Assembly (NCBI RefSeq): GCF_900116205.1
Contig: NZ_FOZS01000002.1
Location: 806,001 to 870,000 of the forward strand
From: Halostagnicola kamekurae
Lineage (GTDB): Archaea; Halobacteriota; Halobacteria; Halobacteriales; Natrialbaceae
Direction: 5' to 3'
Length of the DNA stretch: 64,000 bases
This document shows, in pieces, positions 3,581 to 60,646 of the stretch (positions are counted from its first letter, which is position 1; every line of letters begins with the position of its first letter). The translations under genes were made by a program, and so were the position numbers. Under the pieces are notes generated by a model that was not told the DNA's origin, did no database searches, and worked only from the letters and a program-made list of their open reading frames with translations.

Positions 3581-3729
3581 CACGACTCTATCCAGTCTTC
3601 GAACGCCGACCTAATGACCCGTGTGAATATTTTCATCGGCTGAGAACGACCGATGGTCCGGCTCGAACGACAGCCCCGGCAGGTTCAAATCGAGTGACTT
3701 ATACGGAGCCGTCGGGAACGAACTGGTAC

Positions 3730-4659: not shown

Positions 4660-4770
4660 TTCACACCCTCCCGTTGAGAAACGGTTCGTATTCCCGCTTA
4701 CAGCCGCTCCATCTGGTGGACAGTCGACTCGCTTGCGGATCTGGAGTCAGGATGAAAGAGGGACGTGCGC

Positions 4771-5949: not shown

Positions 5950-5959
5950 CTGATGTTCA

Positions 5960-6165
5960 CCCCGGGGGACTCGCTCGAACCCGGTTTAGCGCGGTATTCA
6001 GAGGAATGTTTTCAGCCGTGAGGGATAGGCGTGAAGTTCCCGGCGAGGGTGGCCAGAAACCCAAACCCGACTCGGGCGTGGGTCAGCGAGTCGTTGGTTG
6101 CTACCCGTTGTATGCTCCGAGGGGAAGCGCCTTGTTAGGTTCCCGGACGTCGTTCACAATCCCGC
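5960..6165 (-). mobile_element. Possible 3' end (right end) relic of an IS200/IS605-type tnpB element
   Basis: On the minus strand one frame ends REPNKALPLGAYNG, resembling C-termini I remember for haloarchaeal TnpB proteins. It is followed by a structured non-coding tail with a 7-bp inverted repeat (CGACTCG at 6068-6074, CGAGTCG at 6087-6093) and the line GCCGGGAACTTCACGCC. This tail recalls the right-end/guide RNA region of haloarchaeal IS1341-type elements. No transposase body is present. The assignment rests on memory of similar ends and needs a database match. Confidence 0.3.
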
Positions 6166-6189
6166 GGCGGCGGGCATCACGACGTGGAA

Positions 6190-6339
6190 TTAGAGGATAT
6201 CGTCGAGCACCGCACAAACGAACTCTCGCGCCGTGGGAGTGCGAACCGCTGGTAGTACAAACCGCTCTGTCTGGCGGGTAATCGTTGCTGTCGTCTTCAC
6301 AGTGATTTCGCCATCCGGTGACGGACAAACATAACTCAT
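6190..6339 (-). CDS. Possible small ORF, 49 residues, unknown
   Basis: Starts MSYVCPSPDGEITVK and ends REFVCAVLDDIL. A longer in-frame start lies at 6396 but overlaps the tRNA. The composition is plausible for a protein, with two Cys and alternating hydrophobics. No family is recognised and no ribosome-binding site is obvious. It may be a remnant of the neighbouring mobile DNA. Confidence 0.25.
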   Translation of the reverse strand: MSYVCPSPDGEITVKTTATITRQTERFVLPAVRTPTAREFVCAVLDDIL

Positions 6340-6374
6340 AAGCCGTTCTGTTGCTAACCGAGAATTGCGAGCGA

Positions 6375-6447
6375 AGTCCCGTGGTGTAGTGGCCAATCAT
6401 CTGAGCCTTTGGAGCTCAGGACGGCAGTTCGAATCTGCCCGGGACTA
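6375..6447 (+). tRNA. tRNA-Gln (anticodon UUG)
   Basis: The acceptor AGTCCCG pairs with CGGGACT, discriminator A. The anticodon stem TGAGC/GCTCA encloses CTTTGGA, giving anticodon UUG. The T arm is GGCAG-TTCGAAT-CTGCC. No intron and no encoded CCA. Confidence 0.92.
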
Positions 6448-6656
6448 TTATCCCCGTTTCAAATTCTCGAGCCAAGTCGTCCGTTTGACGAGTTGATCTC
6501 TGTACCGATCCGTTTGCATCTTACAGTATATACGTAAACTCTCCACGCAGAGCCGTTTTCGAGAGATATCTCGCGAGGGCACCCGCTCGAGAGTCGTCAA
6601 CCAAATACCCCACGTAACTACGGGAGAACCAACGGGGAGGCAGTTCCACAACCCTC

Positions 6657-6665
6657 TTATAAATA
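6657..6665 (+). promoter_or_regulatory. TATA box of the micro-lipoprotein / beta-helix pair
   Basis: TTATAAATA is centred 23 nt before ATG 6684, so transcription would start at or next to the start codon, giving a leaderless message. The 200 bp between tRNA-Gln and this box holds no gene I can support. Confidence 0.6.
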
Positions 6666-6683
6666 AGCTGACTGGACTGAATT

Positions 6684-6812
6684 ATGAACGGTTCTGCGTT
6701 GCGGCGGCGGGAGGTCCTCGCGACAGTATCCGGCAGTTGCGTTGCCCTCGCAGGGTGTACAACCCATTCCGGATACGGCACGGCGTACGGCCGGGGGTAC
6801 GGAGCGGAGTAA
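6684..6812 (+). CDS. Micro-lipoprotein of 42 residues with Tat-like signal
   Basis: Complete reading frame from ATG 6684 to TAA 6810-6812. The N-terminus has RRREVL, then a hydrophobic stretch and LAGC (Cys25): a short Tat-like signal with a lipobox. After cleavage only about 18 residues remain, a Gly/Tyr-rich tail (SGYGTAYGRGYGAE). The stop lies 2 nt before the GTG start of the beta-helix protein, implying translational coupling. I recall similar GYG-tailed peptides before related haloarchaeal genes, which would make it a real conserved gene rather than a broken signal peptide. Function unknown. Confidence 0.6.
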   Translation: MNGSALRRREVLATVSGSCVALAGCTTHSGYGTAYGRGYGAE

Positions 6813-6814
6813 CC

Positions 6815-8314
6815 GTGGCGGATCAGACACCTCGTCTCGGACTGGGCACGTTCGAGCAGGGCGACGACTGGGATCACACCGATACGGTCGAAGCGGTCGA
6901 TCGGCGGGCGATCGTTCGGGGTCCGATCGCCGAGCGCCCCGCGAAGGGCGAGTACGACGACGAACTCTACCACGCGACCGACCAGCGGATCACCTGGCGC
7001 TGGGACGCCTCGAGCGGCGACTGGGTCCACTTCGGCGGTCGCGGGAGCGCCGACCAGCCGGTTCCGGGAACGAGCCACTTCGAGACGGTCGACGCGGTCC
7101 ACGCGCGCACCGCGGAGACCCCCGTCTGGAACGTCGAGGCCCACGGCATCGAGGGCGACGGGACGGCCGAAGTTGGACGGGCGGTCCACGAACTCTTCAA
7201 GACGGTCGCCAAGGCCGGCGGCGGGATCGTCTACTTCCCGCCCGGCAGATACCGCCTCGAGCGGACCCCGCTGGTGGGCGACGACACGATCGTCGTAGGT
7301 GCCGGTCACTCGACCGTGCTCGAGGGAGTGCGTCCCAACGGTGCGGAAGGGAGAGCGCTCATCTCCAATCGGGGATACGACGCGAGCGGATACGACGGCG
7401 CGTCGAACTGGGGGATTTGCAACGTTCGGATCGACACCCCGGAGACGACCGGGATCATGCCCGCACACGCGAAAAACGTTCGACTAGAGAACATATACGG
7501 TGATTACACCTACAACCACCACATCGACGTCGTCTCGTCGAAAAACGTCGTCGTCGACGGCTACTGGGCGACTCGAGGCGGGGAGAGCGGCTCGGACGCA
7601 CCTGTGCAGTTCGACGCGCAGTACTCGGGGGCGTCCTGGAACGGCGTGTGGGACGGCGGCGAGTACAGTCTCGTCGCGGACGACGACACGCCGACGAGAA
7701 ACTGCACCCTCACGAACTTCGCGATCGAACCGGAAAACGGCCCCGAGTACGGCGTCCAGCTCCACCACGGGAGCACCGAGTCGATCACGATCGCGGACGG
7801 CTACATCACCGGTTGTCAGTATACGGCGATCAGAGCAGACTCCGGCGAGGTGGTTTCAGACCTGAAAATCGATGGCGTGTCGTGTATCGATAACGCGAGG
7901 GGGATCACGCTGGGCCAACTCGAGAGCGGCCGACGAGCGCTGACGATCAGTAACACGACGATCAGAACCGAAGACGGCAGTCGGGCCGCGGGCTCGGGAC
8001 TGTACGCCGCCGGGTTCGACGGCGCTGCGATCTCGAACGTCACCGTCGACGGGCCGTTCACGAACGCGATCATCTTCGACGACATGGACGACCTGAAGAT
8101 GAGCAACGTGACCGCGACGGGAGCGGACCATCAGGCGTTTCGGTTCCGGGAGAACGTCGACGCGACGCTCACGACCGCTCGAGCGGCGGACTGTGGGACC
8201 GTCGGAATCTACGTCGGCCCCGACAGCAGCGTGGCCTACGGCGGCGTCGCGTTCGACGACGTCGGGACGCGGGTCGAAGTCGAGGGAGAGACTCGAGCGT
8301 GGAACGCGTCCTGA
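6815..8314 (+). CDS. Right-handed beta-helix / pectate-lyase-like (GH28-related) protein
   Basis: Protein of 499 residues from GTG 6815 (MADQTPRLGLG); the in-frame ATG at 6737 would overlap the micro-lipoprotein gene and encode basic, unlikely sequence. Residues 1-85 form a conserved haloarchaeal N-domain (DDWDHTDTVEAVD, then ATDQRITWRWD). From about residue 108 (VEAHGIEGDGTAEVGRAV) a Pectate_lyase_3 region begins, with GGGIVYFPPGRYRL. Short repeated coils (NVTVDGP, NVTATGA, ISNTTI) continue to the end, as in beta-helices. It has no signal peptide of its own. It probably binds or cleaves an acidic polysaccharide; catalytic residues cannot be assigned by eye. Confidence 0.75.
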   Translation: MADQTPRLGLGTFEQGDDWDHTDTVEAVDRRAIVRGPIAERPAKGEYDDELYHATDQRITWRWDASSGDWVHFGGRGSADQPVPGTSHFETVDAVHARTAETPVWNVEAHGIEGDGTAEVGRAVHELFKTVAKAGGGIVYFPPGRYRLERTPLVGDDTIVVGAGHSTVLEGVRPNGAEGRALISNRGYDASGYDGASNWGICNVRIDTPETTGIMPAHAKNVRLENIYGDYTYNHHIDVVSSKNVVVDGYWATRGGESGSDAPVQFDAQYSGASWNGVWDGGEYSLVADDDTPTRNCTLTNFAIEPENGPEYGVQLHHGSTESITIADGYITGCQYTAIRADSGEVVSDLKIDGVSCIDNARGITLGQLESGRRALTISNTTIRTEDGSRAAGSGLYAAGFDGAAISNVTVDGPFTNAIIFDDMDDLKMSNVTATGADHQAFRFRENVDATLTTARAADCGTVGIYVGPDSSVAYGGVAFDDVGTRVEVEGETRAWNAS

Positions 8315-8473
8315 GAACTCGAGTGGGTGGACCGGCCCGGTGAACTCGCTTTCGGCGGCCGTTCGACGATCGAGTACTTGGTTCGGCCGATGCGTATTTG
8401 AGTTCCCTTTTGCGAACGTTTGGGATGTGATATCGGGCCAAGGGTTATTCGTGCGCCCCTCCTGATCTAGGAT

Positions 8474-9625
8474 ATGTACGCTCCCGAACTCGTGCAGTTC
8501 GTCGCCGTTCGATCCGTTCCGCTCCAATTCGAGGACGTTTCGGGGGTCGCCCTCGCCGGCGGACTCGTCCTCGTGCTGGCGATCGTCACCGTCTGGCAGA
8601 TGGTCGAGATCGTCGACGCATACGACAGAGGTGCGCTGACGGTCTTCGGGGAGTACCGCAAGCTCCTCGAGCCGGGCCTGAACATCGTTCCGCCGTTCGT
8701 CTCTCGAGTGTATTCGTTCGATATGCGAACCCAGACGCTCGACGTGCCGACCCAGGAGGCGATCACGCGGGACAACTCGCCGGTGACCGCCGACGCCGTC
8801 GTCTACATCCGCGTGATGGACGCAAAGCGCGCGTTCCTCGAGGTCGACGACTACAAGCGGGCCGTCTCGAACCTCGCCCAGACTACCCTCCGTGCCGTCC
8901 TAGGTGACATGGAACTCGACGATACCCTCAGTCGGCGAGAGCGCATCAACGAGCGGATTCGGACCGAACTCGACGAGCCGACCGACGAGTGGGGGATCCG
9001 CGTCGAGAGCGTCGAAGTCCGCGAAGTAACGCCGTCTCGAGAGGTTCAGGGCGCGATGGAGCAGCAGACCTCCGCCGAGCGGAAACGCCGCGCCATGATC
9101 CTCGAGGCGCAGGGTGAACGCCGCAGCGCCGTCGAGAAAGCGGAAGGTGACAAACAGAGCGATATCATCCGCGCGCAGGGTGAAAAACAGAGCCAGATCC
9201 TCGAAGCGCAGGGCGACTCGATTTCGACGGTCCTGCGCGCCCGCTCGGCCGAATCGATGGGCGAGCGAGCGGTTATCGACAAAGGGATGGATACGTTGAC
9301 CGAGATCGGCCAGAGCGAGTCGACGACGTTCGTGCTTCCCCAGGAACTCACCTCGATGGTTGGCCGCTACGGCAAACACCTCTCGGGAAGCGATGTCGAG
9401 TCCGACGGCACCGAACTCGACAGCCTCGAGTTCGACGAGGAGACCCGCGAACTGATCGGCCTCGACGACATCGCCGAGATCATCGGCGAGATCGACGAGC
9501 AAGCCGAGATGGACGTCGAAGCGATGGAACAGCAAGCCCGGGCGATCAAGGAAGGAAAAGGCACGGTCGGGGGACCGAACGCCGAACCCGAAGCGGCCGG
9601 CGGCGACGGCGATACAGACGATTAG
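8474..9625 (+). CDS. SPFH / band 7 (stomatin-prohibitin) membrane protein
   Basis: Protein of 383 residues with one N-terminal membrane anchor (about 23-44). The SPFH domain follows (RGALTVFGEYRKLLEPGLN, VPTQEAITRDNSPVTADAVV). A long helical coiled coil from about 195 contains repeated AQGE/AEGD units (LEAQGERR, KAEGDKQ, RAQGEKQ, LEAQGDS). An acidic tail closes the protein. Family members oligomerise into membrane microdomain scaffolds. No NfeD partner gene is adjacent, unlike many stomatin operons. It is transcribed alone from a start 159 bp after the beta-helix gene. Confidence 0.88.
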   Translation: MYAPELVQFVAVRSVPLQFEDVSGVALAGGLVLVLAIVTVWQMVEIVDAYDRGALTVFGEYRKLLEPGLNIVPPFVSRVYSFDMRTQTLDVPTQEAITRDNSPVTADAVVYIRVMDAKRAFLEVDDYKRAVSNLAQTTLRAVLGDMELDDTLSRRERINERIRTELDEPTDEWGIRVESVEVREVTPSREVQGAMEQQTSAERKRRAMILEAQGERRSAVEKAEGDKQSDIIRAQGEKQSQILEAQGDSISTVLRARSAESMGERAVIDKGMDTLTEIGQSESTTFVLPQELTSMVGRYGKHLSGSDVESDGTELDSLEFDEETRELIGLDDIAEIIGEIDEQAEMDVEAMEQQARAIKEGKGTVGGPNAEPEAAGGDGDTDD

Positions 9626-9746
9626 CCGCTCCCGGGGGGTCCCTTCCGGTCGCATAGCACCTCAACCGGTCGCGTGGAGGACCGCCGCTGCGACCGATCT
9701 CACTGATGATTTTTCTGCGCTCGAAACGTAGTTCCGAGCGATTCGC

Positions 9747-10166
9747 ATGATCGCTCGCGTTCTCGTTCCGGTCGACGGCTCCGAAATGGCGACTTACGCC
9801 CTCGAGTACGCCCTCGAGACGTATCCCGACGCCGATATCACCGCGTTGCACGTCGTCGGGGTTCCATCCGCGATGTGGGGCGAAGCGTCTGGCATCGCCC
9901 TCTCTGACGACATCGAGGAGGCGGCGAAAGACCACGCGAGGGCCGTCCTCGAGGACGCGCGCGAAACCGCGGCGACCTACGACGCGGAACTTGCGACCGA
10001 CATCGAACTCGGCCATCCGGTTCGGGCGATCCTCGAGCGAGCCGACGACTTCGATACGGTCGTCATCGGCGCGCACAGCGGGACGCTCTCGGAGCGGTTG
10101 TTCGTCGGGAACGTCGCCGAGAAGGTCGTCCGTCGGTCGCCCGTGCCGGTGACAGTTGTTCGGTGA
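9747..10166 (+). CDS. Universal stress protein (UspA family)
   Basis: Single UspA domain of 139 residues. The N-terminal strand is RVLVPVDGSEMA, and the C-terminal nucleotide loop is IGAHSGTLSERLFVGNVAEKV, close to the G-2x-G-9x-G pattern of ATP-binding USPs. Its role is probably stress signalling through nucleotide-bound dimers. It lies between the SPFH gene and leuS on the same strand with separate spacing. Confidence 0.9.
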   Translation: MIARVLVPVDGSEMATYALEYALETYPDADITALHVVGVPSAMWGEASGIALSDDIEEAAKDHARAVLEDARETAATYDAELATDIELGHPVRAILERADDFDTVVIGAHSGTLSERLFVGNVAEKVVRRSPVPVTVVR

Positions 10167-10253
10167 GTCGGGTCGGAGCCTGCCGTTCGGAGATGCAGTG
10201 GCGAACAATGATATAGCCGGCACACCCACGTGGAGACAACGGACCCTTCGATA

Positions 10254-12968
10254 ATGACCAGCCACTACGATCACGCGCAGGTACAGGAGTTCTGGCAGTA
10301 TATCTGGGAGCGCGACGACGTGTACGAGCTTTCGGAGGACGCCGTCGATCCGACATATGTGCTCGGCATGTTTCCGTACACGTCCGGGACGCTCCACATG
10401 GGCCACGTCCGCAACTACGCGATCACGGACGCGTACGCCCGCTACCGGCGGATGAACGGCGACGACGTACTCCACCCGATGGGGTGGGACGCCTTCGGAC
10501 TGCCCGCCGAGAACGCGGCCCACGACCGCGCGAGCGATCCGGAATCGTGGACGCAGGCCTGTATCCGACGGATGCGCGAGGAACTCGAGACCATGGGCTT
10601 TGGCTACGACTGGTCTCGGGAGATAACGACATGCGAGCCCGAGTACTACCGGTGGAACCAGTGGCTGTTCAAACGACTGTACGAGGAGGGCCTCGTCGAG
10701 TACGAGGCGGCCTCGGTCAACTGGTGTCCCGATTGTGAGACCGTCCTCGCCGACGCGCAGGTCGAGGTGCGGTCTCACGAGGCGAGCGACGGAGTCGACG
10801 GAGCCGGCGACCGCGAGAGTCGGGACGCACAGACCAGAGTCTGCTGGCGGTGTGAAACGCCGGTCGGTCGCCGCGAACTCGATCAGTGGTTCTTCACGAT
10901 CACCGACTACGCGGAGGAGTTACACGACGGACTCGACGAGCTCGAGGGGTGGCCAGACGGCGTCAGGCAGATCCAGCGAAACTGGATCGGGAGACAGGAG
11001 GGCCACCGTATCTCGTTCGAGGTGACGGCCCCCGACGGTGACGCGGTCGCCGACTTCGAGTCCGTCGACGTGTTCAGCACGCGCCCGGAGACCGTCTACG
11101 GCGCGACGTATCTCGCGGTCTCGCCGGGTCACGAACTCGCTCGAGCGGTCGCCGACACCGACGAAACGGTCGCGGCCTACGTCGACGACGCCCGCGAGCG
11201 CGAGCCCGAGTCGGTCGGCTACGACGGCGTGCGAACGGATCTGACCGCGGTGCACCCGCTGACGGGAGCGGAGCTACCGGTCTACGTCGCCGGGTACGTC
11301 CTGAAAGACGTGGGAACGGGAGCCGTCATGGGCGTTCCGGCGCACAACGAGCGGGACCACGAGTTCGCTCGAGAACACGACCTTCCGATCGAGCGGGTCA
11401 TCGTCCCGGACGGCGAGTCGGTCGACGTCGAATCCGAACCCCATCTCGGCGACGGAACCCTCGCGGGCAGCGGCGAGTACGACGGGCTGTCGTCGTCGGC
11501 TGCCGCCGAACGGATTCCGGCCGAGCACGAGGCGTTCGAGGCGGACGTGACCTACCGGCTCCGGGACTGGCTGATCTCGCGCCAGCGCTACTGGGGGACG
11601 CCGATTCCGGTCGTCCACTGTGAAGACTGCGGCCACGTGCTGGTTCCCGACGAGGAGCTGCCGGTCGAACTGCCGGAGTTCGTCCGGACGACGGGAAACC
11701 CGCTCGAGGCACAGGAGTCGTTCGTCGAGACGACGTGTCCTGACTGCGGCGGCCCCGCCCGGCGCGAGACGGACACGATGGACACATTCGTCGACTCGTC
11801 GTGGTACTTCCTGCGCTTTCTCTCGCCCGATATCGACGACGCTCCGTTCGACGCCGAGCTGGCCGACGAGTGGATGCCGATCGACGTCTACGTCGGCGGC
11901 GACGAACACGCCATCTTGCACCTGCTGTACATCCGATTTTTCACACGGGCGCTCGCCGATCTGGGGCTGCTCGAGATCCGGGAGCCGGTCGAACGGCTCA
12001 TCAGTCAGGGGACGGTACTCTACGACGGCGAGAAGATGTCCGCCTCGAAGGGCAACACCGTCGCGCCCCAGGAGTACGGCGCGGAGACGACGCGGCTGTT
12101 CGTCCTCGCCGCGGCCCACCCCGAGCAGGACTTCGAGTGGACGGCGAACGACGTGCGCGGGGTCTACGACCTCCAGCAGTCGCTGTACGGGATGGCGACG
12201 GCGTTCATCGACGAGACGGACACGCGACTAGAGCGGCGCGAGCACGACGAGTACGTCGACCGGGAAATCGACCGAACGATCGCGACGGTGACCGACGAGT
12301 ACGAGCGGTTTCGCTTCCACCGGGCGGTCTCGGAGATCCAGGGATTGGCTCGACTGCTGCGGCGGTATCGCGGCTACGAGACGCCACAGGAGGAGGTCTA
12401 CCGTCGGGGGCTGTTGACCCTCGCAGCGCTGATCGCGCCCATGGCACCCCACCTCGCGGAGGAACTCTGGAACAAGCTCCGCGGCGACGGCCTCGTCGTC
12501 GAGGCAGCGTGGCCCGAACCCGAACGCGACACCGACGACGCACACGTAGCGCGCCGGCTCGTCGAGACGACGCTCGAGGACGTTCGAGACATCGTCGACG
12601 TGGCCGAAATCGAGGCGCCCGAACGGATCGAACTCGTCGTCGCCGAAGACTGGAAGTACCGCCTCGCCGACCGTCTCGCGGAGACCGACCCGGCAGATGA
12701 GACGGCGGAGTTAGTCGACAGACTCGCGACCGACGACGCCGTCGACGCCGACCGGGCGGCTATCGACGCGTTCGTCGCTGATCGGAACCGACGCCGCGGC
12801 GAACTCGATCCGCTGGCCGACGCGGACCGCGAACGCGAGGTACTCGAGCGCTCGCGGTGGTTGCTCGAAGATGAGTTCGGTGCGGTCGTGACTGTGCGAC
12901 GGGCGACGGAAGCGAGCGAGTTCGGGGAGAAGGCGAGACCGGGCAAACCAGCTATCAACATTCAGTAA
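10254..12968 (+). CDS. leuS: Leucyl-tRNA synthetase, bacterial type
   Basis: Class I aminoacyl-tRNA synthetase of 904 residues that charges tRNA-Leu. I chose ATG 10254 (MTSHYDHAQ) over an in-frame GTG at 10230. The HIGH signature is HMGH at about 48-51 in MFPYTSGTLHMGHVRNYAI. A zinc-type NWCPDCETVLADAQV precedes the editing insertion, and KMSKS is KMSASKGN near 593-600. An anticodon-binding helical domain and a C-terminal domain follow. The motifs match bacterial LeuRS better than the longer archaeal/eukaryal form, as known for haloarchaea. Acidic insertions (for example near 183-196) are halophilic decorations. Confidence 0.95.
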   Translation: MTSHYDHAQVQEFWQYIWERDDVYELSEDAVDPTYVLGMFPYTSGTLHMGHVRNYAITDAYARYRRMNGDDVLHPMGWDAFGLPAENAAHDRASDPESWTQACIRRMREELETMGFGYDWSREITTCEPEYYRWNQWLFKRLYEEGLVEYEAASVNWCPDCETVLADAQVEVRSHEASDGVDGAGDRESRDAQTRVCWRCETPVGRRELDQWFFTITDYAEELHDGLDELEGWPDGVRQIQRNWIGRQEGHRISFEVTAPDGDAVADFESVDVFSTRPETVYGATYLAVSPGHELARAVADTDETVAAYVDDAREREPESVGYDGVRTDLTAVHPLTGAELPVYVAGYVLKDVGTGAVMGVPAHNERDHEFAREHDLPIERVIVPDGESVDVESEPHLGDGTLAGSGEYDGLSSSAAAERIPAEHEAFEADVTYRLRDWLISRQRYWGTPIPVVHCEDCGHVLVPDEELPVELPEFVRTTGNPLEAQESFVETTCPDCGGPARRETDTMDTFVDSSWYFLRFLSPDIDDAPFDAELADEWMPIDVYVGGDEHAILHLLYIRFFTRALADLGLLEIREPVERLISQGTVLYDGEKMSASKGNTVAPQEYGAETTRLFVLAAAHPEQDFEWTANDVRGVYDLQQSLYGMATAFIDETDTRLERREHDEYVDREIDRTIATVTDEYERFRFHRAVSEIQGLARLLRRYRGYETPQEEVYRRGLLTLAALIAPMAPHLAEELWNKLRGDGLVVEAAWPEPERDTDDAHVARRLVETTLEDVRDIVDVAEIEAPERIELVVAEDWKYRLADRLAETDPADETAELVDRLATDDAVDADRAAIDAFVADRNRRRGELDPLADADREREVLERSRWLLEDEFGAVVTVRRATEASEFGEKARPGKPAINIQ

Positions 12969-51335: not shown

Positions 51336-52091
51336 ATGAATCGACGCCTCGCTTTTGGAATCATTGTCGTGGCGTTACTCGCCACTCTCGCGGGTTGTTC
51401 GGCGTTTAACGGGGGGATATCCGACGAAGCGCTCGATCGCGAAGGAGACTACGACGATCTCAGAGAGAGCAACGCAACCGCCAGGATCGACGTCGACAGC
51501 GGCGAGTTCCGCGCCGTTTACGATCTGAACGGGACCGATGAAGTCTCGATGTACCGCTCCTCGCTCTATCAGGACGAACCGATGAACATCCACAGCGTCC
51601 GGTACTGGTATCCGAACGGAACCGAAGTCACCGGCTCCGAGTTAGCAGTCGAGCAGGGGCAGTCGAGAACGAACGTGCAGGTCCCCGATAGCGACGGCAC
51701 GCTCGCGGTTTCGGGGCCGGCGGGTGCGAAAACGTTCCAGTTGCCGGCGTTCGTCGAGGGGAGTTACGAAGTGACGATTCCCGAGAACCACAGGACGTCG
51801 AACTTCCTGTTCGGCAACGTCAACCCCAACGGATACGAACGATCGATCGTCGACGGTCGAGAACGGCTCACGTGGGACAACGTCGATACGGCCGTCTCGC
51901 TGCGGTATTACCACACGCGAGACATCCCGCTGTTTCTCGGACTCGTCGGCGTCGTCGGCGTCCTCGGCGGCGCTGGGGTGGCCTACTACTACCGGCAGGT
52001 CAAACGGTTAGAGCGGCGCCGAAAGAGCATGGGAATCGACCTCGAGTCGGACGACGAAACCGACGACGAGTCGCCGCCGGGGCGTCCGTAG
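51336..52091 (+). CDS. DUF5803 family membrane lipoprotein
   Basis: Protein of 251 residues with a signal peptide and lipobox LAGC (Cys21). A beta-rich exported domain covers about 40-190 (WYPNGTEV, SYEVTIPENH, DNVDTAVSLRYYHTRD), a membrane helix lies near 191-215 (FLGLVGVVGVLGGAGVAYYY), and a basic-then-acidic tail faces the cytoplasm. It begins 6 bp after DUF2110. The combination of lipobox and C-terminal helix anchors it at both ends. Function unknown. Confidence 0.82.
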   Translation: MNRRLAFGIIVVALLATLAGCSAFNGGISDEALDREGDYDDLRESNATARIDVDSGEFRAVYDLNGTDEVSMYRSSLYQDEPMNIHSVRYWYPNGTEVTGSELAVEQGQSRTNVQVPDSDGTLAVSGPAGAKTFQLPAFVEGSYEVTIPENHRTSNFLFGNVNPNGYERSIVDGRERLTWDNVDTAVSLRYYHTRDIPLFLGLVGVVGVLGGAGVAYYYRQVKRLERRRKSMGIDLESDDETDDESPPGRP

Positions 52092-52244: not shown

Positions 52245-52760
52245 ATGAACCAGCCCAATTCTGAACCCCAACCGCCGCCCCCTCGAAAAGTAAGCATTTC
52301 TGACGTGGCCGTCGGTGAGGCCCCGGACACCTTCAAATCCTACGGGCTCGGCTCCTGTCTGGCGATCGCCGTGTACGATCCCCGGGCGTCCGTCGGCGGA
52401 CTCGCACACGCGATGTTGCCCACAAGCGATGACGCCGAGACGACCGCGGACCTGCCGGGAAAATACGTCGATACGGCGGTTCGCGCGCTCCGACGGCGGA
52501 CGATCGCGGCGGGCGGGTCCCCCTCGACGCTCGAGGCCAAAATCGCCGGTGGCAGCGATATGTTCGAGTTCGAGAGCCTCGAGGACACCGTCGGCCAACG
52601 CAACATCGCGACGGCGAAGGCGGAACTCGAGGCGCTCGACGTTCCCCTCGTCGCCGAAGACGTGGGCGGCGCCCATGGCCGCACCGTCGAGTTCTCCCTC
52701 AAGACCGGCGCACTCGTCATCGAGACGGCGACTCCGGACCTGGCGGATCGAACGCTGTGA
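52245..52760 (+). CDS. cheD: Chemotaxis protein CheD (receptor glutamine deamidase)
   Basis: Protein of 171 residues. The catalytic Cys is C38 in YGLGSCLAIAVYDP and the His is H55 in GGLAHAMLP, with KIAGGSDMF near 100-108 completing the fold. CheD deamidates transducers and binds CheC. It is isolated from other che genes and ends convergently with the pilus operon, 43 bp away. Confidence 0.9.
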   Translation: MNQPNSEPQPPPPRKVSISDVAVGEAPDTFKSYGLGSCLAIAVYDPRASVGGLAHAMLPTSDDAETTADLPGKYVDTAVRALRRRTIAAGGSPSTLEAKIAGGSDMFEFESLEDTVGQRNIATAKAELEALDVPLVAEDVGGAHGRTVEFSLKTGALVIETATPDLADRTL

Positions 52761-52803: not shown

Positions 52804-53580
52804 TCAGGCAGATGGGCCAACGCCGACATCGAGTTCGACCACGTGAATCGATAACTGCTCGATTCCGTCGCCGTTCGGTCCTGTACACGTCCACCCGCTG
52901 CCCGTCCGAGTCCATCCCGAACCGAATCCGTCAGCCCAGCCGCGAGCGTCCGCGTCGTCGGTTTCGACGCCGACCTCGAGCGAGCGAACGTCCGAGAACG
53001 TCTCCCGGTAGGCGGTCCCCGTCTCTGTCGCGGTAATCGAAGCGCGTCGAGCGGACTGGTAGGAGTCGCCGTCTTCGGTAATCCGAACCAGCGAAACCAG
53101 TGCCGTCTCGTCCGAACACGTCAACCGGGGCTCGACGATCGGCGTTCGCTCCCCCGTTTCACCCGTCCGAAACACGCCTCCGCCTTCGTATGTGACTGAC
53201 CCCGATTCGCTCTCGTAGACCACTGATCCGAGGCGCCACGATTCGGTTTCGGTGCCTCCGCGATAGTCGATACGGAGGTCGATTTTCGGTCCCGGCTCGC
53301 CAGTCGAAATCTGCCCGCCCGCGACCGCGAGTCGGTGGGTCCGCTCGCGAACGCCCTCGGATCGAACGATATCGTCGAAATCGGCCGACAGTGCGACGAG
53401 CGCCCGATCGACGTCCCGCGTCGACTGCTGTTGTTCGTGTAGCTGTATCGACTGCACGCCGACGAGAGACACCAACGCGACCGAAAGCACCACGGTTCCG
53501 AACAGCAAGACGAACCCGACCAGTTCGGTGACAGCGCGGTCGTCTCCCCGTCCGCATCGCTTCGGGCTGGTTGCGTTCAT
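52804..53580 (-). CDS. Pilin-like protein, DUF7289 family
   Basis: Protein of 258 residues, last gene of the pilus-like operon. The N-terminus GDDRAVTELVGFVLLFGTV near 12-30 is a type IV pilin-like segment: charged stretch, then a hydrophobic helix. The exported part is beta-rich and acidic (LRIDYRGGTETESWRLGSVV) with Cys at about 157 and 232. It overlaps DUF7266 by 4 nt. Confidence 0.78.
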   Translation of the reverse strand: MNATSPKRCGRGDDRAVTELVGFVLLFGTVVLSVALVSLVGVQSIQLHEQQQSTRDVDRALVALSADFDDIVRSEGVRERTHRLAVAGGQISTGEPGPKIDLRIDYRGGTETESWRLGSVVYESESGSVTYEGGGVFRTGETGERTPIVEPRLTCSDETALVSLVRITEDGDSYQSARRASITATETGTAYRETFSDVRSLEVGVETDDADARGWADGFGSGWTRTGSGWTCTGPNGDGIEQLSIHVVELDVGVGPSA

Positions 53581-54065
53581 GGGTTCCAGATACTGAGTTC
53601 CGTTCCGTCGGAGCCGATCACGATGGTCCCCCCTCGAGCCGACGCGTCCGTATCGACGTTCGCGTCGAGGTCGCTGAGCGGAACATAGACCGACTGGTCG
53701 GTACGTTGGGCAGTGAGTTCGAGACAGTGCTCGCCCGCCGACAGCGATTGCTCGAGGTCGTTACAGTCATCGACGAGACCGATCCGATATCTCGAGTTCG
53801 CCACCGTCGTCGGATACTCGAGGGTGACCGTCGTCGCGTTCGCCGTTCCGTCTGTTGTGCGAAATCCATCTACCTGTACCACGTCAGTCGCCAGTCGCTC
53901 GCCGGTCGTCTCGAGGGCGTCGCGAACGCCGCGGTCGGTTCCGGTCTCCAGTACGGTACCGGCGCTACTCAGCAAGAGCGCGATGAGGACCGTCGCGATT
54001 CCCAGCGTCAGCGCGTGAGAGAGCGCGGTCGAAACTCCGCGCTCATCGCGATGAAACCCGATCAC
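53577..54065 (-). CDS. Pilin-like protein, DUF7266 family
   Basis: Protein of 162 residues. The N-terminus DERGVSTALSHALTLGIATV near 7-26 is the pilin-like helix. A Cys pair (DDCNDL and EHCLEL, near 101 and 113) is probably a disulfide in the exported domain. Overlaps its neighbours by 4 nt on both sides. Confidence 0.75.
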   Translation of the reverse strand: MIGFHRDERGVSTALSHALTLGIATVLIALLLSSAGTVLETGTDRGVRDALETTGERLATDVVQVDGFRTTDGTANATTVTLEYPTTVANSRYRIGLVDDCNDLEQSLSAGEHCLELTAQRTDQSVYVPLSDLDANVDTDASARGGTIVIGSDGTELSIWNP

Positions 54066-54925
54066 GACGGATCACCGAACCCCATTATCCTGTGGGTTCT
54101 CTCGCTTGTCGTACTGCCGGTGTCAGAGCGCACCTCGAGGTCGACGAACTCGACGCCCGCCGGATCGCCGCCTCGCGTTCTCGGGTTCGGCCCCCTGCTC
54201 ACAACGTCGTACGAGCCGAGCACCGCGTCGCTCGTCGGATCGACGCGTATCGTCTCGTACTCGATCCCCCGGTCGATAGCGTCGTACTCGCAATCGTCGG
54301 GGACGGTCGCGTTCGCGTCGATACCTCCCGTCAGGAGGTTGAATTCGGCCTCGGTCGATTCGATTCGACAGGACGCTCCCGCGGGTGATCGAAACGACAC
54401 CGCTCCGTCACCCGTCGGCGCAATTGTAATGTTTCGTGTGGCCCCTTCCTCCGGGGTCGCCGTAATGACGATCTCCTCGTCCGAGAGAGCCGCTCCGGGC
54501 TCGATTCGAAACCGCGCTATTTCGCCGTCGAATCGGGGCGGCCCCGCCGCCGGCGACCGAGCGCCGGTGTAGCGTCTGACCTCGCGCTCGTCTTCGAGGA
54601 CCTCCGCGCGGACGCTCAACGTGACTCGCTCGCCCGCGACCGTCGTCCGTCGATACCAGTCGACGTATTCGTCGATTTCGCCTTCGAGATCGGCGTCGAA
54701 CTGGGCCGTCTCGTCGTTTCGCGCGCTCGCCGCGAGCAGTTCGATCCCGTCGACGAGTCCGTGTATCGTCGCCCGCGTGGTTGCGCGATCGTTTCCCGTC
54801 GCGCTCGAGGACGTCGCCTCCGTGTACACAAGTCCGGTGACGACTGCGACGAGCGCGAGGAACACGATCGCCACCGTAATCGCACCAACGAGCAGCACCT
54901 GTCCGCGGTCGCGAGACCCGCTCAC
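54062..54925 (-). CDS. Pilin-like protein, DUF7261 family
   Basis: Protein of 287 residues. SRDRGQVLLVGAITVAIVFL near 4-23 is the pilin-like start. The exported region contains YVDWYRRTTVAGERVTLSVR and two Cys (near 186 and 206). Overlaps the neighbouring genes by 4 nt. Confidence 0.75.
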   Translation of the reverse strand: MSGSRDRGQVLLVGAITVAIVFLALVAVVTGLVYTEATSSSATGNDRATTRATIHGLVDGIELLAASARNDETAQFDADLEGEIDEYVDWYRRTTVAGERVTLSVRAEVLEDEREVRRYTGARSPAAGPPRFDGEIARFRIEPGAALSDEEIVITATPEEGATRNITIAPTGDGAVSFRSPAGASCRIESTEAEFNLLTGGIDANATVPDDCEYDAIDRGIEYETIRVDPTSDAVLGSYDVVSRGPNPRTRGGDPAGVEFVDLEVRSDTGSTTSERTHRIMGFGDPS

Positions 54926-55527
54926 CAGACCGTCACCTCCACGTCTACCACGGCGGCGATCGGGCCGACCTCGCGATCGGACATTGCGGGCGGATCAGAT
55001 TCGTTCGCCGCCGCGGCGACCGTCTCTGTATAGCTCGCGGCCGCGGCGTCCGGACCCGGCTCCGCGTCGGCGCTCGAGTAGACGGTCTCCCGCGCTATCG
55101 AGCCGTCGTGGCGTTCGTAGGCGAACCGGATCCGGTACGCTTCATTTCGGGACGATTCTCCGAACTGCTCGGCCAGTAGCTCCCCGAGGACGAAAGTCTC
55201 GAGTTCGCCACTCGAAAACGCCGTCCCGTCCCAGGCGCGGACGAGCGCCGACAGGTCTCCACCGTCAGACCGGGCCGTGGCGGCGACGAGGAGGGCTTCC
55301 TGTGCCTGTCGCTCGAGTTCGTGCTGTCGATGGCGCTGCTTTGACTCCTCGGTAGCGGCCGTGAGTCCGCCCGTCTGGGACGCCACGAGAACCGCCGCGA
55401 GGACAATCGCGGCCCCGACGACGCCCTCGAGCGTGTACGCTTGCCCGCGATCGGTCTCGTCTCGACTCGACTCGTGACCGCCGCACGGACCCGATCGTGA
55501 CCGCACGCTCGCGTCTCGAACTCCCAT
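54922..55527 (-). CDS. Pilin-like protein, DUF7288 family
   Basis: Protein of 201 residues. I chose ATG 55527 (MGVRDASVRSRSG), which overlaps the stop of DUF7287 (TGATG); an earlier in-frame start exists at 55569. The leader of about 30 residues precedes DRGQAYTLEGVVGAAIVLAA, the pilin-like helix. The following helix QRHRQHELERQAQEALLVAA fits a long pilin spine. Confidence 0.75.
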   Translation of the reverse strand: MGVRDASVRSRSGPCGGHESSRDETDRGQAYTLEGVVGAAIVLAAVLVASQTGGLTAATEESKQRHRQHELERQAQEALLVAATARSDGGDLSALVRAWDGTAFSSGELETFVLGELLAEQFGESSRNEAYRIRFAYERHDGSIARETVYSSADAEPGPDAAAASYTETVAAAANESDPPAMSDREVGPIAAVVDVEVTVW

Positions 55528-56021
55528 CAGCTCCACACCTCCACGACGAGTCGACAGGCGGTTCGACACGCTCGAATATCGGTGACTGACACGAACCGTT
55601 CGACCGTTTCGTCCGGACGACCGCGTACCGCGCTGGTGGCGCGAGTCAGAATCACGGACTCCCGATCGATCGTCTCGAGCGTGATCGTTACCGCCTCGAG
55701 GGGCCGTCCGTTGGCGGTTCGGAGGCCGACCCGCGCCGGAGTAGTCGATTCGTCGAACTCGTTTCGAAAACGGGACCCATCTAACTCGTTCGGATCGTCG
55801 CCGGTTTCGAAGCCGTCGACGACCGCCGTCGCGATTCGATCCGCCTGAGCGCGGTCGGTCCGTTCGTCTGAGGCCTCGTTAGTGTGTAGTGCCCCCGGTA
55901 TCGCCGTGAACGCGAACGCAACGGCCAGCAGGAACACGCCGACGCCGATGGCGAAGTCTTGCGTCGTCTGTCCGCGATCGCCGCGAGCGGATCCCGCAGC
56001 GGCGCGTCGGTCGTCACGCAT
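55527..56021 (-). CDS. Pilin-like protein, DUF7287 family
   Basis: Protein of 164 residues starting directly after the platform gene's stop. DRGQTTQDFAIGVGVFLLAV near 15-34 is the pilin-like helix. The exported part is beta-rich (VGLRTANGRPLEAVTITLET) with two Cys (ACRTAC) near the end, just before a hydrophobic strand. Confidence 0.75.
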   Translation of the reverse strand: MRDDRRAAAGSARGDRGQTTQDFAIGVGVFLLAVAFAFTAIPGALHTNEASDERTDRAQADRIATAVVDGFETGDDPNELDGSRFRNEFDESTTPARVGLRTANGRPLEAVTITLETIDRESVILTRATSAVRGRPDETVERFVSVTDIRACRTACRLVVEVWS

Positions 56022-58019
56022 TCACACCACCACCAGCCAGCTACAAAGCGCGACCGTCGAGAGGGCCAGCACGTACTTGGCCCCGCTCAACAGAGCCGCG
56101 TTTCGAAGGTACCCACACACGAACCCCGACAGGATCGCGTGGATTGTAACCGCGTGAAAGAAAACGACCGAGAGCGTATCCGCATCGAGCGTTGCACCAG
56201 AACCAGTACTCGCCAGTTGTCCAGTGGCGCTCGCCGTGTTCGATCCCGTCGCGGAACCGGACTCGAGGCCGCTCATCGTCTCGACGAACTGTGTCTGTAA
56301 GAGCCCAATGACGGTCAGCATCGTCGCGAATGTCATGACGACGATGGCGATCTGTACACGCGTCCGGGATCTGCGTTCCGCCTCGAGGTCGTCGTGGGTT
56401 TCACTCGCTGCCGCAGCGGTCCGTAACACCGGCGTGACGTGGTTCGTCGCTTTCTGTGCGTCGGCGACGAGCCGCGTCGTTCGGGCGAGTCGCGGGATGT
56501 GATAGCAGTTCGCGAACTCGAACAGCGACTCGTCGAGTCGCCGCCCGTAGGCGACCTTCGTGTGAATCGCGTCGAGCTCGGCGGCGAGAGCGCCACTGGC
56601 GGTTCGCGAAACGGTCCGGATCGACTCGAGGAGCGTTTGCCCCGTATCGTTCGCGCTCGAGAGCGTTCGGAGCGTCTCCGAGAGCGCGTCGGCGAGCGCG
56701 CGACGACGGCGTCGATTCCACTCGTAGAAGACCGCAATCGGCGTCAAGACGGTAAATAGAGGAACGTACAGGTATCGTATCGTTACGACGATTGAGTCTC
56801 CGATTCCGCCGCTCGACGGAAATGCACTCGCACCGACCAGCGCGGACCCTGCGACAGCGAGTATCGCAGCGGGAACCGTGACTGCGAGCGTCGCCAGAGG
56901 GTGATCGCGAAAGAACCGATGCGGATTCCGAGCGGCCGTCCGGACGCGGTGTAGCCACGCCCGTCTCGCGATTCGAGTCCGAATCCGCGGCTGATCGCCG
57001 GTGGGAGCGACGACGTGCCAGCCGAACGTGTCCCACTCGCGCGCCGACTCGCTTCGTGCGGTCGAACGTCCCTCGAGAGTCCCCGTCCCTGGGTCGTCGC
57101 GTTTGACCGTGGATATGAGCACGAGAAACCCGACCCCGATCGCAGGGATCAGTCCGTAGACGGCCAGATACAACACGGCGTCTATCGTGGCCGCGCCCGG
57201 CACCAGTTGCATCACGACCACGACGACGACCACTAGCAGCGGAAACAGCGAAACGGTTAGGTACAGCTCGCCGATAAGCTCGAGCGTGTCGAGCGTTTGC
57301 TCCTGTCGCTGTCTGGCGTTTTTCGCGTGTCTGTCCGTCTTCTCCGCGAGAAAAACCTCGAAGTCGCCGCCGCTGTTGATAGTCGAGAGGAGATCTAGCA
57401 GGAACTGTGCCAATTCGTCACTCGGCGTTTCGCGCGCCCGCGTTCGAATCGCGGTTCGGTAATCGACGCCGGCGTATTCGACTTCCCTTCGAATACTTCG
57501 GAACGCGAGCGCGACGTCCCCGTAGGCGTCTTCCGCGTCGGCGAGCGCCTCGAAGACCTCGAGGTGATCGAGGCCGCCGACCGACAGCGCGTACATATAC
57601 GCGATGGCGTCGGGGAGCAACGCGTCGATCTCGCGTTTCCGGGCCGCGGCTCGAGCAGAGGGAATCGCGAGCATCGAGCAGACGCAGAGTCCACCGCCAC
57701 CCACGCCGCATACCAGCGACGTTACACCGGCTATCGCGATCGTCTCGGACGGCTGGGCCACTCCCCCCACGACGTACCCGAGTATCAAGCCCGCGAGACA
57801 GCAGCCGACTCCGACGAGACAGCCCAGACGGAGCGCTCGAGCCAGATACTCCTGGCCCGTCGCGCTCATTCTCGCCTCTCCGAGTTTTCGCTCGAGCGTC
57901 ATCGAGACCGGCCCTAACAGTGCGTAGAGACGAGACGAACGGGCCAGCGGTAACGCGGGACCGAGTGCATCGGAACTCGATCGCTCACTCTCGGTGGTTG
58001 TCGTCGAACCCGTGCTCAT
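56022..58019 (-). CDS. Type II secretion F (TadC/PilC-like) membrane platform, two-domain
   Basis: Protein of 665 residues with two T2SSF domains. The first cytoplasmic helical bundle (ALLPDAIAYMYALSVGGLDH, then DELAQFLLDLLSTINSGGDF) lies near 135-230, and the second (ALADALSETLRTLSSANDTG, ELDAIHTKVAYGRRLDESLF) near 435-500. Clusters of hydrophobic helices flank each, including a C-terminal one. It would anchor pilus assembly with the ATPase encoded just upstream (overlap 4 nt). Confidence 0.88.
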   Translation of the reverse strand: MSTGSTTTTESERSSSDALGPALPLARSSRLYALLGPVSMTLERKLGEARMSATGQEYLARALRLGCLVGVGCCLAGLILGYVVGGVAQPSETIAIAGVTSLVCGVGGGGLCVCSMLAIPSARAAARKREIDALLPDAIAYMYALSVGGLDHLEVFEALADAEDAYGDVALAFRSIRREVEYAGVDYRTAIRTRARETPSDELAQFLLDLLSTINSGGDFEVFLAEKTDRHAKNARQRQEQTLDTLELIGELYLTVSLFPLLVVVVVVVMQLVPGAATIDAVLYLAVYGLIPAIGVGFLVLISTVKRDDPGTGTLEGRSTARSESAREWDTFGWHVVAPTGDQPRIRTRIARRAWLHRVRTAARNPHRFFRDHPLATLAVTVPAAILAVAGSALVGASAFPSSGGIGDSIVVTIRYLYVPLFTVLTPIAVFYEWNRRRRRALADALSETLRTLSSANDTGQTLLESIRTVSRTASGALAAELDAIHTKVAYGRRLDESLFEFANCYHIPRLARTTRLVADAQKATNHVTPVLRTAAAASETHDDLEAERRSRTRVQIAIVVMTFATMLTVIGLLQTQFVETMSGLESGSATGSNTASATGQLASTGSGATLDADTLSVVFFHAVTIHAILSGFVCGYLRNAALLSGAKYVLALSTVALCSWLVVV

Positions 58020-60262
58020 GGCCCGTGAGTATCCGTCGTGGGTTCGGAATCAGCGCTATCGTCTCCCCGTTCGAGGCGTCTTTCACCCTCGGTGGGACGA
58101 TTGCGACGCGTGTCGATCCGTTCGTCACGGTCGCCCCGATCCCGTTGCGTGTCGGAATCGGGTGGCTTCGCGAGCCAGGGCGGTAACTCGAGCGCCGCTC
58201 GAGACGAAGCGGTACCACTCGGTGGCTGTCTGGTACCCGCGCGGTAGTCGTCGAATAGCGCTTCGTCGGCGCGCTCGAGAACGTTCGCCGCGCGCCTGGC
58301 CGTCTCGGGGGACGAATCCGGGCGCGAAACCTGGCTCTCCGTTTGCGAGCGCTCGATTCTGACGCTCTCCATCTCGCGGAGTGCCGGAAGCGCCTCCTCG
58401 AGTCGGTCGGTCGCCATCAGCGTCCGGATCTTCTCGGAATCCGTCATATACGCCTGAATCGTCGCCGCGACGTCCGCGTAGCTGCCGAGACCGCGCTCGA
58501 TCAGGTACGCGAGCACGACCCGGCGCTCGAAGAGTTCGCGTTCGAGCGTCTCCTGACTCCAGCCTCGATCGACTCGAATCTCTTCGAGGATGCTCGACGT
58601 ACCGGCCTCGCGATAGTCGTCGGTTTTCGCCTGCCACTGGTAGACGTCCTGTACGTTGATCTCGTCGCGTTCGACGTCGTAGTCGTTGATCTCGGTAATA
58701 CATTTGTTTCGACGAACGGTCTCGCCGCCCACCGTCGTCTGGGTCTGGACCGCGACTATATCCAGCGAGCTAAAGACCGGCTTCGAGACGTCGATCGGTG
58801 CCGACGTGAACCGGGTCAGCACCTCGTCGACGGAGTCGGCGTGGAAGGTCGTACAGGTCGTGTGTCCGGTCGACATGACCTGAAACAGGGTTCTACCCTC
58901 CTCACCGCGGATCTCGCCCATCACGATGTAGTCGGGGCGCTGGCGCAACGTCGCCTCGAGGAGGTCGAACTCGTCGACGGCTCCCGTCGAGTCGGCAGTG
59001 GGCGACGGCCGCGTCGTACTCGCGATCCAGTTTCGCTGCGGAAGCGTGACCTCGCGGGTGTCTTCTATCGAGACGACCTTCGCGCTCGAGGGGATAAAGA
59101 GCGAGAGCGCGTTCAGGCTCGTCGTCTTTCCGGAGGCCGTCCCGCCGGCTAACAGCAGGCTCTTCCCGTTTTCGACGGCCAGCCAGAGAAACGCCATCTC
59201 CTCGAGGGTGAAGGTGTGCCAGTTGACGAGGTCTACCGGCGTGTACGGCACGTCGGTAAACTGTCGAATCGTGTAGTTCGTTCCCCGATCGGAGACCTCC
59301 GTTCCGAGCGTCAGCTGCGCGCGCGACCCGTCCGGAAGCGTCGCGTCGACTTGCGGGCGTCGCTTGCTGATCCCGTTTCCGGACCGCTGAGCGAGCGTGA
59401 CGACGAAATCGTCGAGTTCTGTCCGATCGTGGTGGACGTTCGTGATGAGCTGGTCGTACTTCGAGTGATAGACGAACACCGGCGCGTCGTAGCCGTCGAC
59501 CGAGATGTCCTCGACGTTGCGGTCACGTTTGATCCCGTCGATTCGCTGGTAGCCCACGAAATCCCGGCACAACCCGTAGAGGAGCTTTTCGACCTGGTAC
59601 TCGCTGAGTGTCCCCCGATCGTCGGCGAGGACTGCCGCGTCTGGACGCGCCTCGATTCCCGTGAGCGTGCGTCGCTCGTCGGATTCGTCGCTCTCCCTCT
59701 CGCGGAACACCGACGAAATCCGCTCGAGAATCCCGCGATCGTCTCGGTTTCGAGAACGCTCGAGCAGTCCGTACCGCTCGAGTAACTCCCTCGCTTCCGA
59801 TTCGATTACGTCTCGACGATCGGCGACGGCTGCGTCCGCGCTGATCTCTTCGTCGGCGTACGTGATGGTTCGCTCGAGTGTGGCTCCGAGAAAGTCGCGG
59901 ACGTCGCGCTCGCGGTCGGTCAGCGATGGCTCAACGAGGTAGTACTTGCGTTCGTTTTCGCTCGTCGAGTGGAAGATGCTGACGAACGCGTAGGGCTCGT
60001 TCACCCAGTACCGATCGATCTCTCGAAGCGTCGATTTCTGCTCGATCGAGACGGCTTTCTCGAGGTCGTATCGGTTCGTCACCGTGGGAAGCCCGCCGTC
60101 AGTCGAGAAGAACTCGTCGTCGTCGATCGCGTGGCGAACGTCGATCGTTCGTTCGTCGACGATCTCGGCGAGTGCCCTGCCGATGCTGTTCGCCGCCCGG
60201 AGCGTGCGTTCGGTCTGGGACGGTTCTGTCCCCGTTTCGGGGGCGGCCGAACCGATTGTCAT
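58016..60262 (-). CDS. Type II/IV secretion system ATPase (pilus assembly)
   Basis: Assembly ATPase of 748 residues from ATG 60262; ATG 60283 and GTG 60286 are in-frame alternatives, and GGGGAGG sits 12-18 nt before the chosen start. Walker A is LLLAGGTASGKTTSLNAL in the C-half (near 380), an Asp/Glu box (VSIEDTREVTLPQRNW) follows, then the Walker B region with YIVMGEIRGEEGRTLFQ and the STGHTTCTTFHADS histidine box. The N-terminal part (1-300) is divergent, as in archaeal family members. The C-terminal tail is acidic and disordered. First gene of the overlapping operon. Confidence 0.9.
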   Translation of the reverse strand: MTIGSAAPETGTEPSQTERTLRAANSIGRALAEIVDERTIDVRHAIDDDEFFSTDGGLPTVTNRYDLEKAVSIEQKSTLREIDRYWVNEPYAFVSIFHSTSENERKYYLVEPSLTDRERDVRDFLGATLERTITYADEEISADAAVADRRDVIESEARELLERYGLLERSRNRDDRGILERISSVFRERESDESDERRTLTGIEARPDAAVLADDRGTLSEYQVEKLLYGLCRDFVGYQRIDGIKRDRNVEDISVDGYDAPVFVYHSKYDQLITNVHHDRTELDDFVVTLAQRSGNGISKRRPQVDATLPDGSRAQLTLGTEVSDRGTNYTIRQFTDVPYTPVDLVNWHTFTLEEMAFLWLAVENGKSLLLAGGTASGKTTSLNALSLFIPSSAKVVSIEDTREVTLPQRNWIASTTRPSPTADSTGAVDEFDLLEATLRQRPDYIVMGEIRGEEGRTLFQVMSTGHTTCTTFHADSVDEVLTRFTSAPIDVSKPVFSSLDIVAVQTQTTVGGETVRRNKCITEINDYDVERDEINVQDVYQWQAKTDDYREAGTSSILEEIRVDRGWSQETLERELFERRVVLAYLIERGLGSYADVAATIQAYMTDSEKIRTLMATDRLEEALPALREMESVRIERSQTESQVSRPDSSPETARRAANVLERADEALFDDYRAGTRQPPSGTASSRAALELPPWLAKPPDSDTQRDRGDRDERIDTRRNRPTEGERRLERGDDSADSEPTTDTHGP

Positions 60263-60337
60263 AGACGGGGTTCGCCTCCCCATCACTCAAAAACCCATTC
60301 GCTCGAGCGGCGGCGAGAGATTTTTCGCGACCGGCAG

Positions 60338-60529
60338 TCACTCGGCAGTTCCGCTAAACGACGGATCTCCCTCTGAATTATCGACGAGAACGAACGTCGT
60401 CGAGCCGCAACTGCAACTGGTAGTGCCTATCGGTTGAATCCCGCCGGTTGGCCATTGACGAGCAGCATACGCGGATCCGCATTCGACACATTCGGCTAAT
60501 TCCCTGGTGATATCGTCTCTGTTGGCCAT
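60338..60529 (-). CDS. Zinc-ribbon microprotein, 63 residues
   Basis: From ATG 60529 (MANRDDITRELAECVECG); earlier in-frame start at 60604 rejected because its leader looks non-coding. Ligands are CVEC and CSC in SCSCGSTTF. The CxxCGxxxxA then IGTxxCxCG pattern matches the protein at 33808-33966. It lies 75 bp upstream of the pilus ATPase on the same strand and could lead that operon. Confidence 0.72.
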   Translation of the reverse strand: MANRDDITRELAECVECGSAYAARQWPTGGIQPIGTTSCSCGSTTFVLVDNSEGDPSFSGTAE

Positions 60530-60646
60530 TCCTAGGAGCCGGAAGCCCGCTTCGGTATATGGTCTTTTCTGTTCCGGCGATCCAGAGCCGGAGAACCCGG
60601 TCACGAATACCGGACGCCGTTCCGAATCGGAGAGAGCGGACCGGGA

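Follow-up and report, generated by a model that had tools for sequence, protein, structure and literature searches.

Makarova et al. (2016; PMC4858521, Fig. 4B) distinguished two clade 2 systems in haloarchaea, the PilA-based system (PilB3) and the PilB4 locus of Haloferax volcanii (HVO_1160). The PilB4 locus encodes an ATPase with additional N- and C-terminal regions together with its own pilin set, and it was filed as a type IV pilus (PMC4858521). Here, we analyze a locus of Halostagnicola kamekurae that we assign to the PilB4 type. It lies in a stretch of 64,000 nucleotides (nt) of contig NZ_FOZS01000002.1 (positions 806,001 to 870,000), called the window hereafter. The locus consists of seven minus-strand open reading frames (ORFs) at positions 52804-60286 of the window that encode, in the order of transcription, an assembly ATPase, a membrane platform protein, and five small proteins of the DUF7287, DUF7288, DUF7261, DUF7266, and DUF7289 families. 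An earlier reading of the same DNA (the original prediction), which counted the span from an internal ATG (52804-60262), had proposed an uncharacterised machine assembling a specialised pseudopilus rather than an adhesive pilus.

PilB4 has been detected in H. volcanii in glucose minimal medium only (PMC7305310), and the pilB4-C4 genes are down-regulated upon virus infection in H. gibbonsii (PMC12542753). We have found in the literature neither a report of a PilB4 filament or mutant phenotype nor any paper that mentions the five small families by their DUF names.

Placement and conservation of the locus

The phylogeny of the ATPase and the synteny with Haloferax indicate that the window locus is a PilB4-type type IV pilus operon. 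In a FastTree phylogeny of 73 ATPases, those of the cassettes, that of the window among them, grouped in one clade that was distinct from ArlI and the PilB3-like proteins of 554-578 amino acids (aa), with a support of 0.87 at its base and of 0.983 without the sequence from G020. This cassette is also present in species of Haloferax, where the ATPase has about 1100 aa. In Haloferax massiliensis, ArlI is found at 926 kb, the cassette at 975 kb, and a 578-aa PilB3-like protein at 1092 kb. This order agrees with the spacing of the gene numbers HVO_1203, HVO_1160, and HVO_1034, the first and the last of which we take to be the corresponding ones. H. volcanii, a species outside the 80 named loci, is linked to the cassette via these relatives, by synteny, and by the control rows of the profile searches, according to which it carries DUF7287, DUF7288, and DUF7289. 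The tree, the Haloferax cassettes, the order in H. massiliensis, and the H. volcanii families thus place the window locus within the PilB4 type, and the term "uncharacterised", in the sense of undescribed, no longer applies to a type that had already been described (PMC4858521).

The window ATPase is a divergent member of this clade, with most of the long N-terminal region missing: it has 756 aa versus about 830-1370 aa in most relatives. It is longer than ArlI and PilB3 (554-581 aa), the extra part being mainly a C-terminal extension that reaches past the PilB3_C-like region. It matches the Pfam families T2SSE (PF00437, E 7.5e-29) and PilB3_C (E 7.6e-10), and its closest relatives in the PDB are 2oap, a type II secretion system protein (E 1.2e-108), and FlaI 4ii7 (E 1.5e-71). 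Judging from its length and its occurrence throughout the phylum, DUF7289 is a candidate member of arCOG02911.

The cassette is conserved over many haloarchaeal families and is neither rare nor new as a locus; the window holds a further copy of a widespread and already catalogued system. DUF7287 occurs in 55 of the 59 genomes sampled from the class, usually within the same operon, DUF7288 in 133/148 genomes of the family that contains Haloferax, and DUF7289, which is spread phylum-wide, in 229/295 genomes of the phylum. Our neighborhood sample comprised 51 loci (50 fetched stretches plus the window). All seven genes were found in 36 of them, seven more lacked DUF7261 only, as judged by profile, and eight had no complete ATPase/platform pair inside the fetched stretch. 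The gaps between pilin genes were of 30 nt or less in nearly all loci examined. Since the gene order recurs over the 51 loci, the operon is not due to chance.

Of the eight incomplete loci, one (L055) ends at an edge with the ATPase just outside the fetched stretch, and another (L058) is a lone distant DUF7287 match. In genome G002, some 1.4 Mb separate the orthologous pair and the pilin cassette, and G021 has a pilin cassette with only a more distant ATPase/platform pair found. In four genomes of one family (G016, G050, G055, and G058; family f3), the stray pilin cassette is a second copy, a complete cassette being present in each genome as well. These second five-pilin cassettes without an adjoining pair (L070, L060, L082, and L059) suggest alternative pilin sets that use one common motor. 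In G020, which belongs to the genus of the window, the ATPase/platform pair and the set of five pilin genes form two convergent units (L036, G020:C3:102300-122299, positions 2866-10336). The arrangements in G002 and G020 and the stray cassettes indicate that the pilin set is separable from the motor on the chromosome. The original prediction had asked whether orthologues occur without the ATPase/platform pair; a minority of pilin cassettes do lack an adjoining pair, but every such genome checked has one elsewhere, and no genome with a pilin cassette and without a motor was found among them.

Many haloarchaea outside the family of the window carry, convergent with the end of the cassette, a long DUF7289-family gene (about 450-500 aa or more) that may encode a large minor pilin or an adhesin and is not present in the window (examples in Table 1).

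Prepilin character of the five small proteins

All five families carry a conserved prepilin signal, R-G/A↓Q/V (the arrow marks the predicted cleavage site), followed by a hydrophobic helix. In alignments of 27-43 orthologues per family, the residues of the predicted PibD site were invariant or nearly so. These are R16, Q18, and D22 in DUF7287 (all invariant, including the Asp at the predicted mature position +5 in 41 orthologues), R41, Q43, and E48 in DUF7288 (invariant), R7 and Q9 in DUF7261 (invariant), R15 (invariant) and V17 and S18 (nearly so) in DUF7289, and R9 and S12 in DUF7266 (invariant or nearly so). A prepilin-like motif with an uncharged run of at least 14 residues was present in 282 of the 288 family members versus 100 of the 2286 unrelated ORFs taken from these loci, an approximate contrast, given that the control covered the first 60 residues only.

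Over the N-terminal 60 residues, the DUF7266 profile is related to that of DUF7289 (hhalign probability 93%, E 3e-7), and DUF7288 shows a weaker relation to DUF7287 and DUF7261 (61%, E 8e-5). These profile comparisons suggest two groups of pilins, DUF7266 with DUF7289 and, more weakly, DUF7287 with DUF7288 and DUF7261. Structure models cover two of the five families. The DUF7266 model has an N-terminal helix of 65 residues (8-72) followed by a seven-stranded beta domain, with a mean predicted local distance difference test score (pLDDT) of 88, and that of DUF7288 an N-terminal helix of 59 residues (40-98) followed by a mixed domain with beta structure (pLDDT 80). The modeled layout of DUF7266 appears pilin-like, and so does, less confidently, that of DUF7288. 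The many ribosomal proteins and sensor domains matched by the DUF7288 model were set aside as sharing a common alpha/beta arrangement.

Searches of the PDB chains with the DUF7289 and DUF7266 sequence profiles gave no match at E < 0.1. Closest to the DUF7266 profile, with E values of 0.13-0.14, came archaeal pilins of the PilA type, 8gi2 (Natrinema PilA2) and 9myg, which is suggestive only. In addition, a PilA-type pilin of the H. kamekurae genome gave a weak match to the DUF7266 model (E 3e-4). The five "DUF" families could be renamed prepilins of the PilB4-type system.

Candidate shaft subunits and rival readings

The original prediction had seen no prepilin peptidase and no obvious major pilin in view, which is true of the window, but whole-genome profile searches located both elsewhere. 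A prepilin peptidase is encoded at C1:262948 (PF01478, E 1.6e-8), and two PilA-type (Pilin_N) pilins at C1:372.5 kb (signal RA↓VSPVIGIVLMVGITVIMAA) and C1:701.4 kb (signal RA↓LSPLIGILVMIAVTVVLAA). Such an unlinked peptidase and unlinked PilA-type pilins are the usual haloarchaeal arrangement; the pilB3-C3 operon of H. volcanii, for example, contains no pilin genes (PMC6491452). The sole other PF00482 platform protein of the genome is in the archaellum locus.

Two genomes of the window's own family, G047 and G029, show no archaellum, and the cassette holds their only PF00482 platform and their only PilB-type ATPase; their other PF00437 matches are a short-match ATPase of 677-744 aa in each and one sub-threshold match. 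They carry five (G047) and four (G029) Pilin_N genes, those listed being far from the cassette. This single machine accompanied by four or five unlinked Pilin_N genes is our main reason for proposing that PilA-type pilins are polymerized by PilB4-C4, and these genomes are natural single-machine strains in which to ask what PilB4 assembles. A further genome, G014, has no PF00482 platform, DUF7287, or DUF7289, an apparent joint loss of the pilus and archaellum platforms, and has kept one Pilin_N gene.

Our preferred reading, to which we give somewhat better than even chances, is that PilB4-C4 builds a surface pilus with the operon's five pilins as priming or tip subunits and with a shaft that consists, as we infer, of PilA-type pilins. 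As expected from what is established for type IV pili, PibD, the unlinked prepilin peptidase, would cleave each prepilin at the conserved signal, the PilB4 ATPase would drive PilC4 to lift the mature pilins from the membrane, and the helical filament would be held by their packed N-terminal helices. The five operon pilins, produced together in a fixed order, would form a priming and tip complex, perhaps also a base, in which DUF7287, DUF7288, and DUF7261 would be one tentatively related group. DUF7266 and DUF7289, which are PilA-like, would link this complex to the shaft, most of which would be supplied in trans by the stand-alone PilA-type pilins. In DUF7287 and DUF7288, the acidic residue (at +5 and +6, respectively) may serve as the equivalent of the pilin Glu5. 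The role of such a filament is likely surface attachment, biofilm formation, or cell contact.

Several observations weigh against our preferred reading. In H. volcanii, PilB4-C4 does not stand in for PilB3-C3 in the assembly of PilA pili, which it fails to rescue in the pilB3-C3 mutant (PMC4371748), and Makarova et al. predicted a dedicated, PilA-related major pilin within the PilB4 operon itself (arCOG03926), which would make PilA unnecessary (PMC4858521). The Pilin_N gene retained by G014 without a PF00482 platform indicates that such genes need not depend on a PilB4 machine. The divergent ATPase/membrane-protein pair that we describe below could assemble the PilA pilins of the H. kamekurae genome instead of PilB4-C4. 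Moreover, we found in the literature no experiment showing which filament PilB4-C4 makes. Finally, the original prediction would have been refuted by a lack of pilin folds in structure predictions; the good DUF7266 model and, less well, that of DUF7288 show a pilin-like layout, but Foldseek and VIA-align searches with both models against the PDB returned no significant pilin match; the top VIA match of DUF7266 was the pseudopilin chain 2ret_A of the EpsI/EpsJ complex, whose Z of 4.5 is within the chance range.

The failed rescue in H. volcanii and the prediction of Makarova et al. also argue for a PilB4-type pilus whose shaft comes from the operon's own DUF7266 or DUF7289 pilin, the other four being minor and the distant PilA not needed. 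This reading is a real possibility, at about one chance in three, and agrees as well with DUF7266 being small, PilA-like, and modeled as a helix plus a beta domain. Nevertheless, the DUF7266 gene is packed closely together with the other four, with nothing that marks its product as the abundant subunit, and the species with only the PilB4 machine keep four or five PilA genes.

We regard as improbable the short pseudopilus of the original prediction, i.e., a type II secretion-like piston without a true pilus, even if the count of five distinct minor-pilin-like proteins in the operon recalls the GspG-K set and the weak 2ret_A match points in the same direction. This reading is not upheld because the parts missing from the window, the peptidase and the PilA-type pilins, have their genes at other sites of the genome. 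Besides, no secretin was found in the genome (PF00263, E <= 0.1), and archaea have no outer membrane. None of the examined loci links a secreted substrate to the operon, and the locus type had been filed as a type IV pilus (PMC4858521). A secretin-free variant, in which the five pilins form a membrane-anchored pseudopilus that moves proteins or DNA across a single-membrane, S-layer-covered envelope, unlike adhesive pili, seems to us hardly more than a slim chance. Type IV pili take part in DNA uptake in some archaea and bacteria, and a competence-like pilus for DNA uptake or cell-to-cell transfer can be imagined here too; we consider it very improbable, as no ComEC-like or DNA-handling gene was noticed near the operon in the window, where no dedicated search for one was made.

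The divergent pair mentioned above is located at C2:188.5-192.8 kb (L224, G000:C2:184000-200000, positions 3339-8775). The gene of its PilB-like ATPase (680-836 aa) is preceded by a DUF7311 gene, is divergent from that of a HerA-like ATPase, and overlaps the gene of a 573-aa protein that matches no Pfam family and is probably a membrane protein. The pair is probably another type IV-like system unseen by PF00482, and after finding it we dropped the idea that the operon encodes the only type IV machine of this genome.

Operon layout, neighbors, and comparison with known systems

The seven ORFs of the original prediction are all present, and its assignment of an ATPase, a two-domain T2SF platform, and five prepilin-like proteins to one operon stands as that of an archaeal type IV pilus-type assembly machine. 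Each family name that it had guessed (DUF7261, DUF7266, DUF7287, DUF7288, and DUF7289) was matched by a Pfam hidden Markov model, the weakest match of the operon being DUF7261 (30.7 bits versus a cut-off of 27). The junctions are, in the order of transcription, a 4-nt overlap between the ATPase and platform genes, 0 nt, a 1-nt overlap if DUF7288 starts at 55527, and three 4-nt overlaps.

Table 1. Genes of the PilB4-type operon and its neighbors (window positions), with examples of the long convergent gene from other loci (positions within each locus).
Feature	Position	Strand	Details
PilB4-type assembly ATPase (VirB11/PilB family)	58016..60286	-	756 aa from GTG 60286, or 748 aa from ATG 60262
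PilC/TadC membrane platform	56022..58019	-	665 aa, two T2SF domains; PF00482 E 4.2e-23, two stretches
DUF7287 prepilin-like protein	55527..56021	-	PF23958 E 4.8e-30; signal RG↓QTTQD
DUF7288 prepilin-like protein	54922..55569, probable start ATG 55527	-	PF23959 E 8.7e-30; signal RG↓QAYTLE
DUF7261 prepilin-like protein	54062..54925	-	PF23922 E 4.4e-7; signal RG↓QVLLVG
DUF7266 prepilin-like protein, PilA-related	53577..54065	-	PF23928 E 3.1e-16; signal RG↓VSTA; 162 aa
DUF7289 prepilin-like protein, PilA-related	52804..53580	-	PF23960 E 4.1e-38; signal RA↓VTEL
CheD	52245-52760		convergent with the operon, 44 nt from its end
DUF5803 probable lipoprotein	51336-52091		beside CheD
88-aa ORF	60338-60604	-	four-cysteine, zinc-ribbon-like; just upstream of the ATPase gene
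Long convergent DUF7289-family gene (examples)	L046 5315-6826; L068 5357-6847; L073 5391-6884		many others

In eight more of the fetched loci (L035, L043, L048, L071, L072, L074, L077, and L083), CheD is likewise no more than a few kb away from the cassette, and the DUF5803 gene adjoins the cassette in both congeneric genomes too (L035 and L036). The 88-aa ORF is not conserved with the operon, since a weak relative was found in only one other fetched locus (L044).

Compared with known systems, the locus shares with bacterial type II secretion the homologous GspE/GspF components and the pseudopilin-like proteins; it differs in the lack of a secretin in the genome and in its ATPase, which is nearer to FlaI, CpaF, and VirB11 than to GspE. 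The archaellum (arlIJ) has a homologous ATPase and platform, but it is encoded in a separate arl locus of the same genome (C2:110-118 kb). The operon ATPase was rejected as a FlaI/ArlI equivalog, with a score of 385.8 versus a 550-bit cut-off, no archaellin among the seven genes, and the arl locus being separate. The pil-2 locus of Halobacterium salinarum (PMC4292770) is likewise a co-transcribed seven-gene pilB-pilC-prepilin operon, but we take it as a clade 4C type with divergent PilB2/PilC2. The PilB3-C3/PilA adhesion pili of H. volcanii resemble the window locus in the homologous ATPase and platform, the prepilin signals, and the PilA-type pilins encoded elsewhere, whereas the pilB3-C3 operon has no pilin genes inside and the PilB3 ATPase falls in a separate clade (PMC6491452 for the pili and the operon). 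From the PilB4 locus of H. volcanii, the window differs in its shorter, divergent ATPase and in having no long convergent DUF7289-family gene as in many other genera; it shares with it a PilB with extra sequence, which in the window is mainly C-terminal, a TadC/PilC partner, and its own set of multiple pilins.

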